Shown here one piece after another: positions 21,935 through 28,335 of a stretch of 64,000 nucleotides of DNA (positions within the stretch are counted from its first letter, which is position 1; the number at the start of each line of letters is the position of its first letter). The translations under genes and the position numbers were made by a program. Where the stretch lies: positions 310,001 through 374,000 of the forward strand of contig NZ_DF968183.1 in NCBI RefSeq assembly GCF_001192835.1, given 5' to 3'. Origin of the DNA: Lentimicrobium saccharophilum (lineage in GTDB: Bacteria > Bacteroidota > Bacteroidia > Bacteroidales > Lentimicrobiaceae). A model generated the notes under the pieces. The model saw only the letters and a list, made by a program, of their open reading frames with translations, was not told the DNA's origin and did no database searches.

Positions 21935-22882
21935 TCAGCACATGCCCTGCTCAGAGAACATGCGGAGCAAACCCTTGTGTACAGGATATCCCGGGGAATA
22001 ATTCAGCAGCCGGCGGGCCTTGCTGATGTCGGCATAGGTGATTTCCACATCGCCGGCCTGCATGGGCTTCCATTCGATGACAGCTTTCCTGCCCAATGTT
22101 TCCTCAATACCCCGCACCAGGTCGATCAGCGAAATGGTGTCGCTGTTGCCCAGGTTAAAGATCTCGTATCCCTTCAGATTGTTGGCGCAGGCAATGATGC
22201 CGGCAGTAATATCGCTGATGAAGGTGTAATCCCTTCGGGTGGTCCCATCGCCGAAGAGCGTGATGGGCGCGCCTTCACTGATCTTACGCCCGAACTGCTG
22301 TATGGCCATTTCGGGCCGTTGCCCGGGTCCGTAGACCGTGAAGAACCTCAGACAGTAGATATTGAAGTTATAAAGATGATGGTAAGTGTAGCAAAGCAAT
22401 TCTCCGGCTTTTTTGGTGGCGGCATAAGGCGAAATGGGGTTGTCAACCGGATCGGTTTCGCTGAAGGGCACTTTCCTGTTATTTCCGTAAACCGATGAGG
22501 AGGAGGCAAAGAGCATGTCTTTGATGCCTGCCGCCCGCATGGCTTCGAGCAATACCAGCGTGCCGGTGACATTCACATCGTAATATAGTTCAGGCTGTTC
22601 AATGGAAGGCCGCACCCCGGCCCGGGCAGCGAGGTGAATCACCAGATCCGGTTTCGCTGCACTGAAAATTTTATCGAGCGTTTCGCGATGTCTGATGTCG
22701 CCTTCGTAAAGCTTAAAACCTTTATTTTCCGAAAGTCTGCCCACCGCTCTACGCTTGATCGCTGGATCGTAAAATGTATCGAAATTGTCAAGGCCTGATA
22801 CTTTGTATCCCTGCTCCAGCATGGTGCGGGCAAGACTTGAGCCGATAAATCCGGCGACACCGGTGATAAAAACATGTTTCAT
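21935..22882 (-). CDS. NAD-dependent epimerase, UDP-glucuronate 4-epimerase-like
   Basis: The protein has 315 aa and is an extended SDR enzyme of the cytoplasm. The dinucleotide-binding G-V-A-G-F-I-G-S starts at about residue 8, and the catalytic pair is Y153-x-x-x-K157 in PYAATKK. The segment L-D-N-F-D-T-F-Y-D-P-A-I-K-R after the second strand is like that of UDP-glucuronate 4-epimerases, which make UDP-galacturonate. Other sugar epimerases are possible. It is the last gene of a four-gene operon with a flippase-like protein, a GT2 and a GT39 enzyme, and it would supply the sugar nucleotide. The gap to the upstream gene is 3 bases. Confidence 0.82.
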   Translation of the reverse strand: MKHVFITGVAGFIGSSLARTMLEQGYKVSGLDNFDTFYDPAIKRRAVGRLSENKGFKLYEGDIRHRETLDKIFSAAKPDLVIHLAARAGVRPSIEQPELYYDVNVTGTLVLLEAMRAAGIKDMLFASSSSVYGNNRKVPFSETDPVDNPISPYAATKKAGELLCYTYHHLYNFNIYCLRFFTVYGPGQRPEMAIQQFGRKISEGAPITLFGDGTTRRDYTFISDITAGIIACANNLKGYEIFNLGNSDTISLIDLVRGIEETLGRKAVIEWKPMQAGDVEITYADISKARRLLNYSPGYPVHKGLLRMFSEQGMC

Positions 22883-22885
22883 TTT

Positions 22886-23779
22886 CTAAACTTTTGCTTC
22901 AGGTTCTTTTACATCTGCACCGCATTCAAGCTTTATATTCAGTGCCTTTTCGTTCAGGGAGTAGTAAATCCCGCTCAGCGAAACCACCGCGGTAATCACG
23001 TAAAACAGCAGACTGAGTGCGATGGATAGATGAATGTCGAGATGCATGATTTCAGCCCCGAAAAGAAAAGTGATCTCGCGCGATCCGATGCCGCCTATGG
23101 TGATGGGTAGTGTAGCTACGATGGAGGATATGAGAAAAAGAAAAAGATAAGCCAGTATCTGTTCCTGGTGGTGGTTGGCCAGCAGGATCAGCCAGGCGGA
23201 GAGCAGCTGGGCAAGCTGAACACCCGCTGAATAGAGGTTTGTCAGGTGGATACTTTTCCTGAAATCCTTGAAAAACCAATGAATGGAAAGATAATAAACT
23301 GCAATGGATACAGGGATTGCTGCAACTGCCAGATATTTATACAGTACCGGTAAGGCTATAAACGGAACCATCAGCATAGCCAGTACGAACAGCGCAAGCA
23401 CCCCGTTCACCCTGTCGAGCAACACCGCCCAGAACAGCTTTTTTGCCCCGGTCCCGAACTTCTTATTGAGCAGGTAAATTTTATAACCGTCACCGCCAAT
23501 GCCGCCGGGCAGGAAAAGGTTGTAATACATCCCGAGCAGGTATAGCCTCAGGTTGCTTTGTTCGGTGAGCCCGGCTCCGGTATTCCTGAAAAAGATGTTC
23601 AGGCGGTAAGATGAAAGCACTTTAGAGACCGCGAAAAGGAGGGTAGCGGCCAACAGCCAGCCATAATGCACATGCCTGAAAATCTGTAAGACTTCCCTGA
23701 CGTCAATTTTGGTATATACATACCAGAGTGCGGCGACGGAAAGCGCGATTTTCAGGAATGCTTTAAGCGGTCGGGACAT
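22886..23779 (-). CDS. LPG-synthase-TM / AglD-type flippase-like membrane protein
   Basis: The protein has 297 aa and about eight membrane helices. It matches the lysylphosphatidylglycerol synthase transmembrane (UPF0104/AglD) family: an N-terminal helix, S-K-V-L-S-S-Y-R-L-N, the loop P-G-G-I-G-G-D-G-Y-K, and late T-I-G-G-I-G-S-R-E. It lacks the soluble aminoacyl-transferase domain of MprF. Standing between an epimerase and a polyprenyl-sugar-type GT2, it is a good candidate for moving the lipid-linked sugar across the inner membrane, but this is inferred from position only. It starts one base after the GT2 stop. Confidence 0.8.
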   Translation of the reverse strand: MSRPLKAFLKIALSVAALWYVYTKIDVREVLQIFRHVHYGWLLAATLLFAVSKVLSSYRLNIFFRNTGAGLTEQSNLRLYLLGMYYNLFLPGGIGGDGYKIYLLNKKFGTGAKKLFWAVLLDRVNGVLALFVLAMLMVPFIALPVLYKYLAVAAIPVSIAVYYLSIHWFFKDFRKSIHLTNLYSAGVQLAQLLSAWLILLANHHQEQILAYLFLFLISSIVATLPITIGGIGSREITFLFGAEIMHLDIHLSIALSLLFYVITAVVSLSGIYYSLNEKALNIKLECGADVKEPEAKV

Positions 23780-23780
23780 C

Positions 23781-24725
23781 TCAGGCTTCGAATGTGTGTA
23801 CTTTGCGGATTTTATAAGGGCGTTTCTGCTGTGACTCGTAATAAGTGCGCATCAACAGCTCTGCCATAATTCCGATGGTAATCAGTTGTATGCCGGCAAT
23901 CAGCAGCAATATGCCCAGCAGCAGCATCGGCTTTCCCCAGATATCGTGACCCATAATCTTCTCAATAAGGAACCATCCGTTGATAAGTGAGCCCACTATC
24001 AGAAATAACAGGCCGATCCCTCCGAAAAGATGCATTGGCTTACCCATATACTTTTTAAAAAATACCATCAGCATCAGATCGCTTACGACTTTAAACGTCC
24101 GGTTGATGCCATATTTCGATTTGCCGAACTCCCGTGCATGGTGCTTTACGTCCACCTGAGTGATGGTCGCGCCTTCGAGGCTTGCCAGCACGGGAATAAA
24201 GCGGTGCAGTTCCCCGTAAAGACCGATGTTTTTGGCCAGATCGCTTTTAAACACTTTCAGGGTGCAGCCGTAATCTTTTATGTAGACCCCGGTACTTTTA
24301 CGGATAATGGCATTGGCAATTTTGCTGGGGATTTTCCTCAGAAACATCCCGTCCTGTCTGTTTTTCCTGACACCGGCCACCAGGTCCCAGTGTTCATCCT
24401 CCGCCAGTTTCAGCATCATGGGAATATCGCTGGGGTCATTCTGCAGGTCGCCGTCCATGGTAACAAGGTATTCTCCCCGCGCCTGTTCAATGCCTGCATA
24501 GAGGGCCGCACTCTGCCCGAAGTTTTTTCTGAATTCCACCAGCACAACCCGGGGGTCATTCAGGGCAATGATTTCCTGCCGTGTGCGGTCGGTGGAGCCG
24601 TCATCCACATAGATAATCTCGTATTCCATGCCGGTAATGGATTCGTTGATCCATTTGTTCAGCGGCCTGATATTGGGTTCCTCGTTGTAAACGCAGATGA
24701 TTATGGATAACTTCGGATTGTTCAT
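23781..24725 (-). CDS. GT2 glycosyltransferase, polyprenyl-phosphate sugar transferase type (ArnC/DPM1-like)
   Basis: The protein has 314 aa. The N-terminal GT-A domain (about 5-230) starts L-S-I-I-I-C-V-Y-N-E-E and has Y-V-D-D-G-S-T-D near residue 41 and the metal-binding M-D-G-D-L-Q-N-D-P near 93. Two C-terminal membrane helices (about 230-300) carry the cytoplasmic catalytic domain on the inner membrane, as in ArnC, GtrB and RgtE. Such enzymes put a sugar on undecaprenyl phosphate. Its start overlaps the stop of the GT39 gene by four bases. With the epimerase as donor supplier and the GT39 as acceptor enzyme it forms a complete donor pathway. Confidence 0.88.
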   Translation of the reverse strand: MNNPKLSIIICVYNEEPNIRPLNKWINESITGMEYEIIYVDDGSTDRTRQEIIALNDPRVVLVEFRKNFGQSAALYAGIEQARGEYLVTMDGDLQNDPSDIPMMLKLAEDEHWDLVAGVRKNRQDGMFLRKIPSKIANAIIRKSTGVYIKDYGCTLKVFKSDLAKNIGLYGELHRFIPVLASLEGATITQVDVKHHAREFGKSKYGINRTFKVVSDLMLMVFFKKYMGKPMHLFGGIGLLFLIVGSLINGWFLIEKIMGHDIWGKPMLLLGILLLIAGIQLITIGIMAELLMRTYYESQQKRPYKIRKVHTFEA

Positions 24726-26329
24726 AGGGATTTCTTTAACAGGAAAAGCCTGGTTTCGCTTAGCTTGATGGTAAAGGTATGGATGATTTCGTAACCTTCG
24801 AGCCGGTCTGCAAAAGTAGCCAGATTTTTTTCATCCGCGATGTAACAGGTGCCGGAATCGCTGATTTCCCATGTTCTCCTGATAATCTGCCGGCTTTCGC
24901 GGGCAATGTAAAACGAAGCATCGTGGTTGAAGGGAGTGTCTCCAAGCACATAGGTATTACACTCCTTAATAAGCTGACCTGCCGTGATTTCACCCTGCCG
25001 GTAACCCGCATCCGGATAGGAGTTATAGCGCGCCTGAAGGTTAAACATGCTGAAAGCAATGCGCACCGTCAACATAACAATAATCAGCAACAGCATACGA
25101 AGGGGAACATGCTTTCGCATCAGCCAAACCGCTGAACCGGCAATGATAAAGAGCAAAGGAATGATCATCCATACACCCTGCAGTTGATTTGTTTCGTCCC
25201 AAAACAGATAATAAAGCAGGGAGGCTGTCCCCAGCAATCCCAGTACACCGAAAACCACATCGGTGATCTTTCGAAGATTATTCCTGCTTTCTGCAGATAA
25301 AGACCAGGCCTTTACCAGTATCACAAAGAGCAGGGGGAAGAGCATAAACAGGTAGCGCGGTCGCATATCTGCCGAGATCCAGTAAATAATGATATTGCTA
25401 CTGAATATCAGCAGGTTGAACATAATGAACTTGTCGGTATACAGGGCAATCCGGATTTTTTTACTCAACAGCAATAAAAGCAGTATAGTCCACGGGGCGA
25501 ATTCATAGATCATTTCAAACGGAAAAGTCACCAGGTGGAGCAGCCAGCTGAGGAAGGTGCCCTTTTTGTCGGAAAGCCTGTTCGACTGGTCGAACAGCGT
25601 GGAAAATACATCGTCAAGGGTGTTGGTCTGGAGGTAAGCATAGTAGTAGGTGCCTGTGATCAGCGCGAAGGTCAGGATGCCGGCCAGGTGCTGCCAGGAG
25701 AAAAGCTTACGGAATTGCTTGTCGTAGCTGAGCCATGCCAGCAGGCTGATGCCCTGAAACGCAATGGAGGGGAGTCCTTTCATCAGGTAGCCGGCAGCGG
25801 CCAGTGCGTAGGTGGCCGTAAACATCAGCAGCCATTTGCGTCGTTGCGAAAGGTGATAAAGCAAGGCAAATCCTGTGAACGTCACCAGTGAATAGGTAAT
25901 GTCGATCAGTCCCTGAAAAGAGTCCCAGAACAGGATGCGTGCCGAAGTGATCATCATCAGGGCGGCCATTACCGCATTCCTCCATCCCAGCGCTTTCCGG
26001 GCAAAAAGGGTTATTGCAAGGCCCATCAGCAGCAGAGAGATTACAGTCGGCAACCTGAAGATGAACTCGTTCTCAACTCCGGCAACTTTGACAAAACCCG
26101 CAAGTATCCAGTTGAAGAGGGGAGGTTTGTTGTAATAAAAATCCCCGTTGATCGTGGGGGTGATGAAGTTCTCCGACAAGATCATTTCGAGTGTGACCAC
26201 CGCCCGGGTAGGTTCATCGGAGATCAGCGGCATCAGCCCCAGGTTGGTAAAAAGCGCCAACGGCAAGAGCAGGATGATAATGATCAGGATGGTATCGGAC
26301 AGGATAGATTTATCCTTCAGGCCATTCAT
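24722..26329 (-). CDS. ArnT-like GT39 glycosyltransferase
   Basis: The protein has 535 aa with about 11-12 membrane helices. The first periplasmic loop contains the family signature S-D-E-P-T-R-A (about residues 37-43), where the D-E pair is the catalytic acidic motif. Next come N-G-D-F-Y-Y-N-K-P-P and a helix pair with F-R-L-P. It uses polyprenyl-phosphate sugar on the periplasmic side to glycosylate lipid A or another envelope lipid. It is the first gene of the minus-strand operon. The acceptor is not deducible. The 146-bp gap to the divergent LTA-synthase-like gene holds the promoters of both. Confidence 0.85.
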   Translation of the reverse strand: MNGLKDKSILSDTILIIIILLLPLALFTNLGLMPLISDEPTRAVVTLEMILSENFITPTINGDFYYNKPPLFNWILAGFVKVAGVENEFIFRLPTVISLLLMGLAITLFARKALGWRNAVMAALMMITSARILFWDSFQGLIDITYSLVTFTGFALLYHLSQRRKWLLMFTATYALAAAGYLMKGLPSIAFQGISLLAWLSYDKQFRKLFSWQHLAGILTFALITGTYYYAYLQTNTLDDVFSTLFDQSNRLSDKKGTFLSWLLHLVTFPFEMIYEFAPWTILLLLLLSKKIRIALYTDKFIMFNLLIFSSNIIIYWISADMRPRYLFMLFPLLFVILVKAWSLSAESRNNLRKITDVVFGVLGLLGTASLLYYLFWDETNQLQGVWMIIPLLFIIAGSAVWLMRKHVPLRMLLLIIVMLTVRIAFSMFNLQARYNSYPDAGYRQGEITAGQLIKECNTYVLGDTPFNHDASFYIARESRQIIRRTWEISDSGTCYIADEKNLATFADRLEGYEIIHTFTIKLSETRLFLLKKSL

Positions 26330-26440: not shown

Positions 26441-26448
26441 TAACTTTG
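26441..26448 (+). promoter_or_regulatory. Bacteroidota -7 box for the LTA-synthase-like gene
   Basis: TAACTTTG matches the TAnnTTTG -7 consensus. A TTTG at 26414-26417 is a possible -33 element, with a somewhat long 23-nt spacer. The box lies 27 bases before the ATG at 26476, which supports that ATG and not the upstream TTG at 26446. Confidence 0.55.
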
Positions 26449-26475
26449 CAGACTTATTTCGAACTACGCTGGTAT

Positions 26476-28335
26476 ATGAAGCAGATATTGATTTCATTTT
26501 TCAGGCAGATGCTCTTCTGGTTATTGTTTTTTGCATTCGCCAGAACGGTTTTCATGCTCTACAATTTTCAACTGCTGCGCATCGAAGGCGCGTCTTTCGG
26601 CGAAGCCATGGCCGCATACCGGCACGGCTTTCAGCTCGACTTTGCCACTACTTCGTATTTTATGCTTTTTCCTGCAGTTTTGCTGCTGATCCAGTCGTTG
26701 TGGAGCAGAAGCTGGATGAATAAGGTAAACCGGATCTATACCTATACGGCAATCACGCTTTTCAGCCTGCTTACCGCTGTTGAACTGGGCATTTATCCTG
26801 AGTGGAAAACCAAACTGCCTTTCAAGGCCTTTGCCTACCTGAGCAATCCCACTGAAGTTTATGATACAGTTTCCAACGCGCTGTTTTTCTCCCTGATTGG
26901 TCTGTTTATTATAATGGTCATGCTCACTTCCTGGATTTACCGGAGGTGGTTTTATCAGGACATCAGACAGACCGGGAGAAGTTATTTTTTCAGCACCGTA
27001 TTCCTGGTTGCTGCGCCGGTGTTGCTTTTTATAGGGGCCAGGGGAGGGGTGCAGCCCATTCCGATCAACCAGAGCGCTTCCTATTATTCCAACAAGAATA
27101 TCCTGAACATCGCCGCTGTAAATTCAGGGTTTAACCTGATGATTAATATTATTGAGAATTATAGAAATTTCGGTGAAAACCCTTATGCCTTTTACAGCGA
27201 AGAGGAGGTTGCGCAGACTCTGGAAAAGATATTAGCCACGGAAAAAGATTCAACCACAAATGTGCTCACTGCCAACCGGCCTAACGTGGTGTTGCTGATT
27301 CTTGAAAGCTGGTCGGCCGATCTGATCGAATCCCTTGGTGGAGAACCGGGCATAACCCCGGAATTCAGAAAACTGGAAAAAGAAGGTATTCTTTTTACAA
27401 ATCTATGGGCCACCGGCCCCCGCAGCGAGCAGGCCATGGGAAGTATTTTCGGAGGCTTTCCCGCTCACCCGATCTCTTCCATTACCGTGCAGCCTGATAA
27501 GTTCGCCAAACTTCCCACCCTCACGCATAAGCTGATAGAGGAGGGGTATCATACCTCTTTTTACTTCGGAGGGCAACTGATTTACGGAAACATCAAGGGA
27601 TTTATTCTTTACAACGGTTTTAAACGCATTGTTGAAGGGGCTGATTTCGGCAAGGAGGCTATCAAAGGTAAACTTGGCGCGCACGATGAGTTCGTGCTTT
27701 CGCGTCAGTTGGCTGATCTATCCAAAGAAAAGGAGCCCTTTTTCTCAGCACTGTTCACCCTGAGTTCTCATTCGCCTTACGATCAGCCGATGGAACAGGT
27801 GCTCGACTGGGGAGATAACGAAAAACCTTACATAAACTCGGCCTATTATACCGACCATTGCCTGGGCCGGTATTTCGAAGAAGCCCGTAAACAGCCCTGG
27901 TACAAAAACACCCTCTTCGTGATTGTAGCGGACCATAGCCACAATTCATACCGCAACTGGGCTTTTACCACCCCAAACTATCATAGAATACCCATGCTGC
28001 TGGTTGGTGATGTGATAAAGGAGGAGTTCAGGGGGACAAAGGTAAGCCGGCTTTCGAATCAATCTGACCTTGCTTCAACCCTGCTGAATCAGCTTGATAT
28101 CGATGCGGGTGCTTTCCACTGGAGCCGAAATCTGTTTAATCCTTATGCACCTGAGTTTGCCTATTACTCATTTGAGGAAGGCCTGGGGTGGATCAGGCCT
28201 GCAGGGCACTTTGTAATGGATGCGCGCATAGGACACTTCCACGAAAATGCCATCCCCGAAGCTTATACCGATTCCATTATCAGGGAAGGAAAATCATATT
28301 TGCAGGCCCTTTTCGGAGAGTATATGTCTTACTGA
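26476..28335 (+). CDS. LTA-synthase-family sulfatase (phosphoglycerol/phosphoethanolamine transferase-like)
   Basis: 619 aa from the ATG at 26476. Five N-terminal membrane helices (about 5-190) are followed by a periplasmic sulfatase-fold domain (about 265-600). The metal-site features are V-V-L-L-I-L-E-S-W-S, the putative nucleophile region T-G-P-R-S-E-Q-A-M-G-S, G-A-H-D-E-F, S-S-H-S-P-Y, and V-V-A-D-H-S-H-N. Gram-negative members move phosphoglycerol or phosphoethanolamine from phospholipids to glycans or lipids. Its place, divergent from a lipid-sugar operon, fits a second envelope-decorating enzyme. The reported start 30 bases upstream (TTG) would overlap the promoter and is rejected. Confidence 0.85.
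   Translation: MKQILISFFRQMLFWLLFFAFARTVFMLYNFQLLRIEGASFGEAMAAYRHGFQLDFATTSYFMLFPAVLLLIQSLWSRSWMNKVNRIYTYTAITLFSLLTAVELGIYPEWKTKLPFKAFAYLSNPTEVYDTVSNALFFSLIGLFIIMVMLTSWIYRRWFYQDIRQTGRSYFFSTVFLVAAPVLLFIGARGGVQPIPINQSASYYSNKNILNIAAVNSGFNLMINIIENYRNFGENPYAFYSEEEVAQTLEKILATEKDSTTNVLTANRPNVVLLILESWSADLIESLGGEPGITPEFRKLEKEGILFTNLWATGPRSEQAMGSIFGGFPAHPISSITVQPDKFAKLPTLTHKLIEEGYHTSFYFGGQLIYGNIKGFILYNGFKRIVEGADFGKEAIKGKLGAHDEFVLSRQLADLSKEKEPFFSALFTLSSHSPYDQPMEQVLDWGDNEKPYINSAYYTDHCLGRYFEEARKQPWYKNTLFVIVADHSHNSYRNWAFTTPNYHRIPMLLVGDVIKEEFRGTKVSRLSNQSDLASTLLNQLDIDAGAFHWSRNLFNPYAPEFAYYSFEEGLGWIRPAGHFVMDARIGHFHENAIPEAYTDSIIREGKSYLQALFGEYMSY

Follow-up and report, generated by a model that had tools for sequence, protein, structure and literature searches.

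In rhizobia, RgtE synthesizes bactoprenyl-phosphate galacturonic acid (GalA), and RgtD and RgtF act as lipid A GalA transferases; Rgt homologues are also reported in Caulobacter and Aquifex, where GalA on lipid A was assigned by homology (PMC7663294). Here we describe a four-gene operon of the Bacteroidota member Lentimicrobium saccharophilum that probably encodes a pathway of this Rgt/Arn-like kind, in which galacturonate would travel on polyprenyl phosphate and a stand-alone PF03706 protein would serve as the flippase. The operon was analysed within a stretch of 64,000 nucleotides, called the window below, which corresponds to C2:310001-374000 of a 4.5-Mb genome in two contigs. An earlier note on this DNA had read the four genes as a system for a polyprenyl-linked sugar, possibly galacturonate, and our analyses support that reading, with the type of the epimerase and the three partner assignments all holding.

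Comparison with the Arn system, whose flippase is ArnE/ArnF, revealed that, among solved structures, ArnC comes closest to the GT2 protein and ArnT to the fold of the GT39 protein, whereas both window proteins miss the NCBIfam equivalog models, the gene for donor supply encodes an epimerase, and PF03706 is the family of the flippase candidate. Compared by description, the locus would share with the Rgt system the placing of GalA on polyprenyl phosphate followed by an extracytoplasmic GalA transferase, but the Rgt genes are described as scattered over the genome (PMC7663294), while in the window a single operon includes an epimerase of its own as well as a PF03706 protein. The three-component glycosylation systems (GtrA, GtrB and GT-C) also combine a lipid-linked sugar synthase, a flippase and a GT-C transferase, and the account cited states that direct proof of their flippase step is missing (PMC11127046); in contrast to these, the window has PF03706, and not GtrA, SMR or MATE, as the flippase candidate and adds a nucleotide-sugar epimerase. 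In archaea, arCOG00899 (PF03706), arCOG00563 (PMT/STT3-like) and arCOG00897 (AglD-like GT2) form a neighbourhood, and a flippase function has been predicted for all of COG0392 (PMC5898192). The same three protein kinds adjoin each other in the window, although the archaeal trio is tied to protein glycosylation and no epimerase is named with it in the description cited (PMC5898192). AglD itself fuses GT2 and PF03706 in one protein, whereas the window has two separate open reading frames (ORFs) with a stop between them. Finally, gpgSDF of Pseudomonas aeruginosa likewise sets an AglD2/YbhN-type predicted flippase, of unverified activity, beside a glycosyltransferase, but there a GT4 enzyme and a deacetylase act on phosphatidylglycerol for a glycolipid, with neither an ArnT-like protein nor an epimerase in the description cited (PMC12713373). 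The open-licence literature yielded no description of a four-gene bacterial version, an absence that is weak given that scope.

The four ORFs, all on the minus strand at 21935-26329, are transcribed in the order GT39-like, GT2, PF03706 and epimerase (Table 1). The GT39 and GT2 genes overlap by 4 bp, and gaps of 1 bp and 3 bp separate GT2 from PF03706 and PF03706 from the epimerase, confirming that the genes overlap or touch as the earlier note had it. Among the 18 same-genus genomes searched, 14 had an orthologue of the GT39 gene, and 13 of these 14 contigs carried the full set in the same order on one strand, with intergenic gaps of -59 to +99 bp; in the fourteenth (L044), the contig end falls inside GT2. 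Genomes G003, G006, G007 and G008 of the genus (72 to 96% complete) hold a paralogue of the GT39 gene only. The arrangement, kept in this way across the genus, cannot be explained by chance. Scans for promoters, terminators and -7 motifs gave no excess over shuffled sequences.

Table 1. The four genes of the operon, with positions in the window, from first to last transcribed
Feature	Position	Strand	Length	Pfam match	Place in operon
GT39/PMT_2, ArnT-like GT-C glycosyltransferase	24722-26329	-	535 aa	PMT_2, E 1e-9	First gene
ArnC-like GT2, two C-terminal hydrophobic segments	23781-24725	-	314 aa	Glycos_transf_2, E 1.9e-32	
Stand-alone PF03706 (YbhN/AglD2-type) membrane protein	22886-23779	-	297 aa	LPG_synthase_TM, E 2e-34	
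Predicted UDP-glucuronate 4-epimerase	21935-22882	-	315 aa	Epimerase, E 8.9e-65	Last gene

In the pathway that we propose, the epimerase would convert UDP-glucuronate (UDP-GlcA) to UDP-galacturonate; the UDP-glucuronate would come from an enzyme of the UDP-glucose dehydrogenase type, whose gene lies outside the operon (C2:195185, with an adjoining UXS-like gene). The ArnC-like GT2 would load GalA onto polyprenyl phosphate at the cytoplasmic face, the PF03706 protein would flip polyprenyl-phosphate-GalA to the periplasmic leaflet, and the ArnT-like GT-C enzyme would then attach GalA to the envelope, with lipid A or the inner lipopolysaccharide as the most likely acceptor. Gene anatomy, conservation, the epimerase type and the two membrane folds were computed, while we infer the flipping, the acceptor and the substrates of the GT2, PF03706 and GT39 steps; galacturonate as the lipid-linked sugar is suggested by gene linkage together with the epimerase type. 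If the pathway operates in this manner, galacturonic acid would be expected on the envelope of these Bacteroidota, and its negative charge, independent of phosphate, might influence the interaction of the cells with cations and cationic peptides.

The best solved relatives of the epimerase are 5u4q (248 bits) and 6zl6 (185 bits). The former is labelled a dTDP-glucose dehydratase in its PDB file and is presumably the UDP-GalA epimerase of Klebsiella. The latter was taken as the UDP-GlcA 4-epimerase of Bacillus cereus (BcUGAepi), because its residues at 85, 126, 127, 128, 149, 178, 185, 211 and 280 are those named for that enzyme, T/S126, S127, S128, T178 and R185 among them (PMC12338863, PMC7984243). 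In a 28-row tree with long outgroup branches, the window protein grouped with 5u4q and 6zl6 (support 95/94), apart from the GalE, RmlB, UXS-like, TviC-like and Gmd proteins of the same genome, and in a 69-row tree the epimerase group again joined the reference chains (95/90). The window protein thus clusters with neither GalE nor the dehydratases, either of which groupings would, by the earlier note, have refuted its reading of the operon. Furthermore, Ser, Ser, Ser, Thr, Arg and Thr occupy the carboxylate-binding BcUGAepi positions 126, 127, 128, 178, 185 and 280 in all 13 proteins compared (the window protein and 12 orthologues). Of the other proteins of this genome, RmlB, the UXS-like protein and Gmd carry Glu at 128, GalE combines S-C-T with Val at both 185 and 280, and position 185 of the TviC-like protein is Asp. 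The tree and the active-site residues indicate that the protein is a UDP-glucuronate 4-epimerase, neither a GalE nor a dehydratase, and the window gene is the only one of this type among six epimerase relatives in the genome (E up to 1e-15). 4-Amino-4-deoxy-L-arabinose (L-Ara4N) is not favoured as the sugar, given a UDP-GlcA 4-epimerase as the supply gene; ArnA, ArnB and ArnD were not searched for.

The GT2 protein found its best PDB match in ArnC 9bhc (159.5 bits; cyanobacterial sll0501, 99.8 bits), and its GT2 domain is accompanied by C-terminal hydrophobic segments at 236-254 and 268-286, the combination by which a polyprenyl-phosphate sugar synthase is recognized. We regard the protein, by its profile matches, as ArnC-like and not as ArnC. 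The PF03706 protein scored 119.9 bits against PF03706 (cut-off 33.4) and 63 bits against TIGR00374 (cut-off 43.2). Its structure model (predicted local distance difference test, pLDDT, 86.5) matched six MprF entries at Z 20.3-22.2 with 275-278 residues aligned, the top match reaching Z 22.2 over 276, and the next non-MprF match lay at Z 5.6; the modelled protein has the fold of the MprF flippase domain.

The GT39 protein matched PMT_2 modestly (39.2 bits, cut-off 26.1) and, in the profile search, ArnT 5ezm (E 3.2e-13). Its model (pLDDT 85.4) superposed on ArnT with Z 31.7 and a root-mean-square deviation of 4.5 over 487 residues (model residues 8-535), including the C-terminal periplasmic domain. 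In ArnT, D55/E56, K85 and Y345 are described as active-site or donor contacts, with D55 as the active-site Asp and K85 and Y345 at the donor phosphate, and E84 as a metal contact (PMC7801869). When these positions were carried over by profile alignment in 15 rows, with an inferred numbering offset of 3, D55/E56, K85 and Y345 fell on D38/E39, K68 and Y326 of the GT39 protein, identical in all 15 rows, and R270 fell on R251, which is Arg in 12 rows and Lys in three. The model indicates an ArnT fold in which key ArnT positions are kept. The partner assignments of the earlier note, an ArnC-like GT2, a flippase-like membrane protein and an ArnT-like GT39, are accordingly borne out, the first by profile, with ArnC 9bhc as the closest solved relative, and the other two by both profile (PF03706; 5ezm) and fold (MprF; ArnT). 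A second ArnT-like paralogue, about 41% identical, lies at G000:C1:1081174-1082637 (L049 5767-10023) among diacylglycerol-kinase-type, SUI1 and MscS-type channel genes, an order that recurs in other genomes of the genus. A 117-aa gene there, considered as a GtrA-type partner, was rejected, as Pfam identified the neighbours as SUI1, DAGK and MscS.

We then compared gene neighbourhoods in other genomes. Eighty loci were found by similarity to the PF03706 protein alone, being the best 80 of at least 502 confirmed relatives; by title they are all Bacteroidota except for two metagenome-assembled genomes (MAGs) labelled Campylobacterales, and they overlap partly with the same-genus genomes. A same-strand GT2 of the operon type adjoins the PF03706 gene in 64 of the 80, a count in which the GT2 of L181, L188 and L189 is masked by a longer ORF, and a GT39 of the operon type lies within three genes in 37. 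A UDP-GlcA 4-epimerase was detected within four genes in 17 loci, 12 of them from the window's own clade. Outside the clade there are five such loci: in L079, L087, L104 and L106, the epimerase stands directly beside the GT39 gene and belongs to a different subfamily, which the tree places with 5u4q in all four cases (100/99; L087 scores 393 bits against 5u4q), and in L141 the epimerase is two genes away from the PF03706 gene, on the opposite strand. The GT2 was found at E up to 1e-100 in 41 of 148 genomes of the phylum, and a PF03706 gene adjoins it in 22 of the 30 GT2 loci opened, the window's among them. Pairs of GT2 and PF03706 genes are common across the phylum. Relatives of the epimerase occur at E up to 1e-80 in 103 of 392 phylum genomes; 100 loci were taken from the matches, of which 98 had a full-length epimerase ORF (L245 and L319 were dropped). 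An ArnT-like gene lies within two genes of the epimerase in five of the 98 (L250, L261, L262, L268 and L279), with L261, L262 and L279 coming from one genus. Most epimerase relatives serve other loci, and the association with ArnT-like genes has had more than one origin. A 298-aa gene of L250, tried as a PF03706 candidate, proved to be WecG.

The linkage was also examined on trees of the GT2. In a 44-row tree, made from the 80 PF03706 loci only with near copies removed, eight of 22 rows in one half were linked to an epimerase and none of 22 in the other (Fisher p 0.0036, a value that ignores shared descent and applies to halves defined once the larger tree was known), and the branch dividing the halves had a support of 92/95, just under the tool's star. 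The epimerase label required four changes on this tree, all forced by starred branches, and none of 500 shuffles was as low. The larger tree, reduced from 78 to 56 rows by dropping near-identical ones (score over 0.87) and including rows picked for a nearby epimerase (L193-L195, L244, L250 and L256), agreed with it except for one very long branch (L244). These results fit, without proving, a GT2 subgroup that may handle GalA in the epimerase-linked half. In L194 (7100-9061) and L195 (6386-8381), a UDP-GlcA 4-epimerase gene directly follows a GT2 of the operon type, and the 15 kb examined contain neither a PF03706 gene nor an operon-type GT39 gene; a 462-aa gene beside the pair in L194, considered as a GT-C enzyme, turned out to be a peptidase.

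Several observations weigh against a polyprenyl-phosphate galacturonate pathway. The GT2 protein, at 181.5 bits, fell far short of the cut-off (529) of the NCBIfam ArnC equivalog, and none of the NCBIfam families, the ArnT equivalog included, matched the GT39 protein at E up to 0.001, so that the sugar and the acceptor of the Arn system cannot be transferred to the window. The metal-contacting E84 of ArnT is replaced by Asn in all 15 GT39 rows, and the epimerase has Ala at the position of Pro85, as does 5u4q. The flippase role of stand-alone PF03706 proteins is described as predicted, not proven (PMC12713373, PMC5898192). No UDP-GlcA 4-epimerase lies within four genes in 63 of the 80 PF03706 loci, and no ArnT-like gene within two genes in 93 of the 98 epimerase loci, showing that neither half needs the other. 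In addition, a search of the open-licence literature for GalA in Bacteroidota lipid A gave nothing relevant, its matches being mostly on pectin, the gut and taxonomy.

The acceptor is the weakest step of the pathway, as the fold of a distantly related GT-C enzyme does not reveal its acceptor. LpxC is present in the genome, and lipid A is therefore made and available, but we name it as the acceptor only tentatively. The same machinery might instead deliver GalA to a glycan such as O-antigen or exopolysaccharide, to a protein or to another lipid, which is a serious possibility though somewhat short of probable. Pmt4 (Z 22.3), the next protein type after ArnT in the fold search, and ALG12, OST and the mycobacterial arabinosyltransferases that also appear in the list use other acceptors, three-component systems are said often to modify polysaccharides (PMC11127046), and a Pfam scan of the nearby genes detected no lipid A modification gene beside the four. 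ArnT nevertheless leads the next type by 9 Z units, in an alignment that extends through the C-terminal domain.

The epimerase could merely share the transcript and feed UDP-GalA to another polymer, the GT2, PF03706 and ArnT-like proteins carrying a different sugar. The many PF03706 loci without an epimerase and epimerase loci without an ArnT-like gene, as counted above, would agree with this, but the epimerase is the last gene in all 13 complete loci of the genus and unrelated epimerase subfamilies have joined ArnT-like genes in other lineages, and we consider the explanation unlikely.

That the PF03706 protein is an accessory or a regulator, with another protein flipping the lipid-linked sugar, seems more doubtful still. 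The operon protein matches PF03706 alone and no GtrA-type (PF04138) flippase is encoded in the operon, while the genome holds two GtrA-type genes outside it, either of which could be such a flippase, and three further PF03706 genes; moreover, the GT2 lacks an adjoining PF03706 gene in L164, L167 and L168. Against this, the modelled MprF flippase-domain fold and the recurrent pairing of GT2 with PF03706 argue for the operon's own protein. Polyprenyl-phosphate sugar flippases are described as mostly predicted and not proven (PMC12713373, PMC5898192, PMC11127046), and with PF03706 as the candidate flippase, a compact operon in which this protein follows both the synthase and the transferase, and in which the donor sugar is indicated by the operon's own epimerase, would provide a clean system for testing the family.

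Lastly, identity of the epimerase as GalE (UDP-glucose 4-epimerase) or as some other sugar epimerase, implying galactose or a pentose, is highly improbable: TIGR01179 galE is the best NCBIfam model and Ala at position 85 is reported for UDP-xylose 4-epimerases (PMC12338863/PMC7984243), but the galE score of 195 bits stays under the cut-off of 262.3, a separate GalE of the genome reaches 389.9 bits, 5u4q shares the Ala, and tree placement and carboxylate residues set the window protein with the UDP-GlcA 4-epimerases, by which both GalE and dehydratase identities were rejected.

Beyond this operon, Bacteroidota may hold a class of polyprenyl-phosphate-GalA systems, built repeatedly by combining UDP-GlcA 4-epimerases of different lineages with interchangeable flippases (stand-alone PF03706 or LAB_N), with stand-alone PF03706 proteins as general polyprenyl-phosphate-sugar flippases in bacteria and archaea, a generalization that we put forward with some reserve. 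A LAB_N protein (Pfam) comes after the GT2 in L261 and L268, at the place that PF03706 has in the window.

LAB_N genes were noted in three of the epimerase loci. L261 (4533-8906) and L268 (4735-8803) contain GT2, LAB_N, UDP-GlcA 4-epimerase and ArnT-like genes together, with LAB_N as if in the place of the flippase, and L279 contains LAB_N (by a profile made for this analysis), an epimerase and an ArnT-like gene. LAB_N had no match in the genome of the window, and nothing relevant to it was found in the open-licence literature.

Other observations concern neighbouring genes. One GtrA-type gene and the best-scoring PF03706 gene of the genome lie about 5 kb apart at G000:C2:1305080-1311213 (L063 2075-8301), near peptidase, ChaN-like and pantoate ligase genes. 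Adjoining the operon, a divergent gene at 26446-28335 (+) encodes an LtaS/sulfatase-type membrane protein (PF00884), a relative of which occurs on this side of the operon in 13 of the 14 contigs of the genus (as two ORFs in L040 and truncated where the contig ends in L035); in L046, two short ORFs intervene. Many of these contigs also retain a histidine kinase gene and a DUF1015 gene on that side, and the LtaS-like linkage was not used as evidence because it may thus be plain synteny. In L102 and L140, the MAGs labelled Campylobacterales, the genes appear in the order GT39-GT2-PF03706, reflecting either lateral transfer or misbinned contigs.

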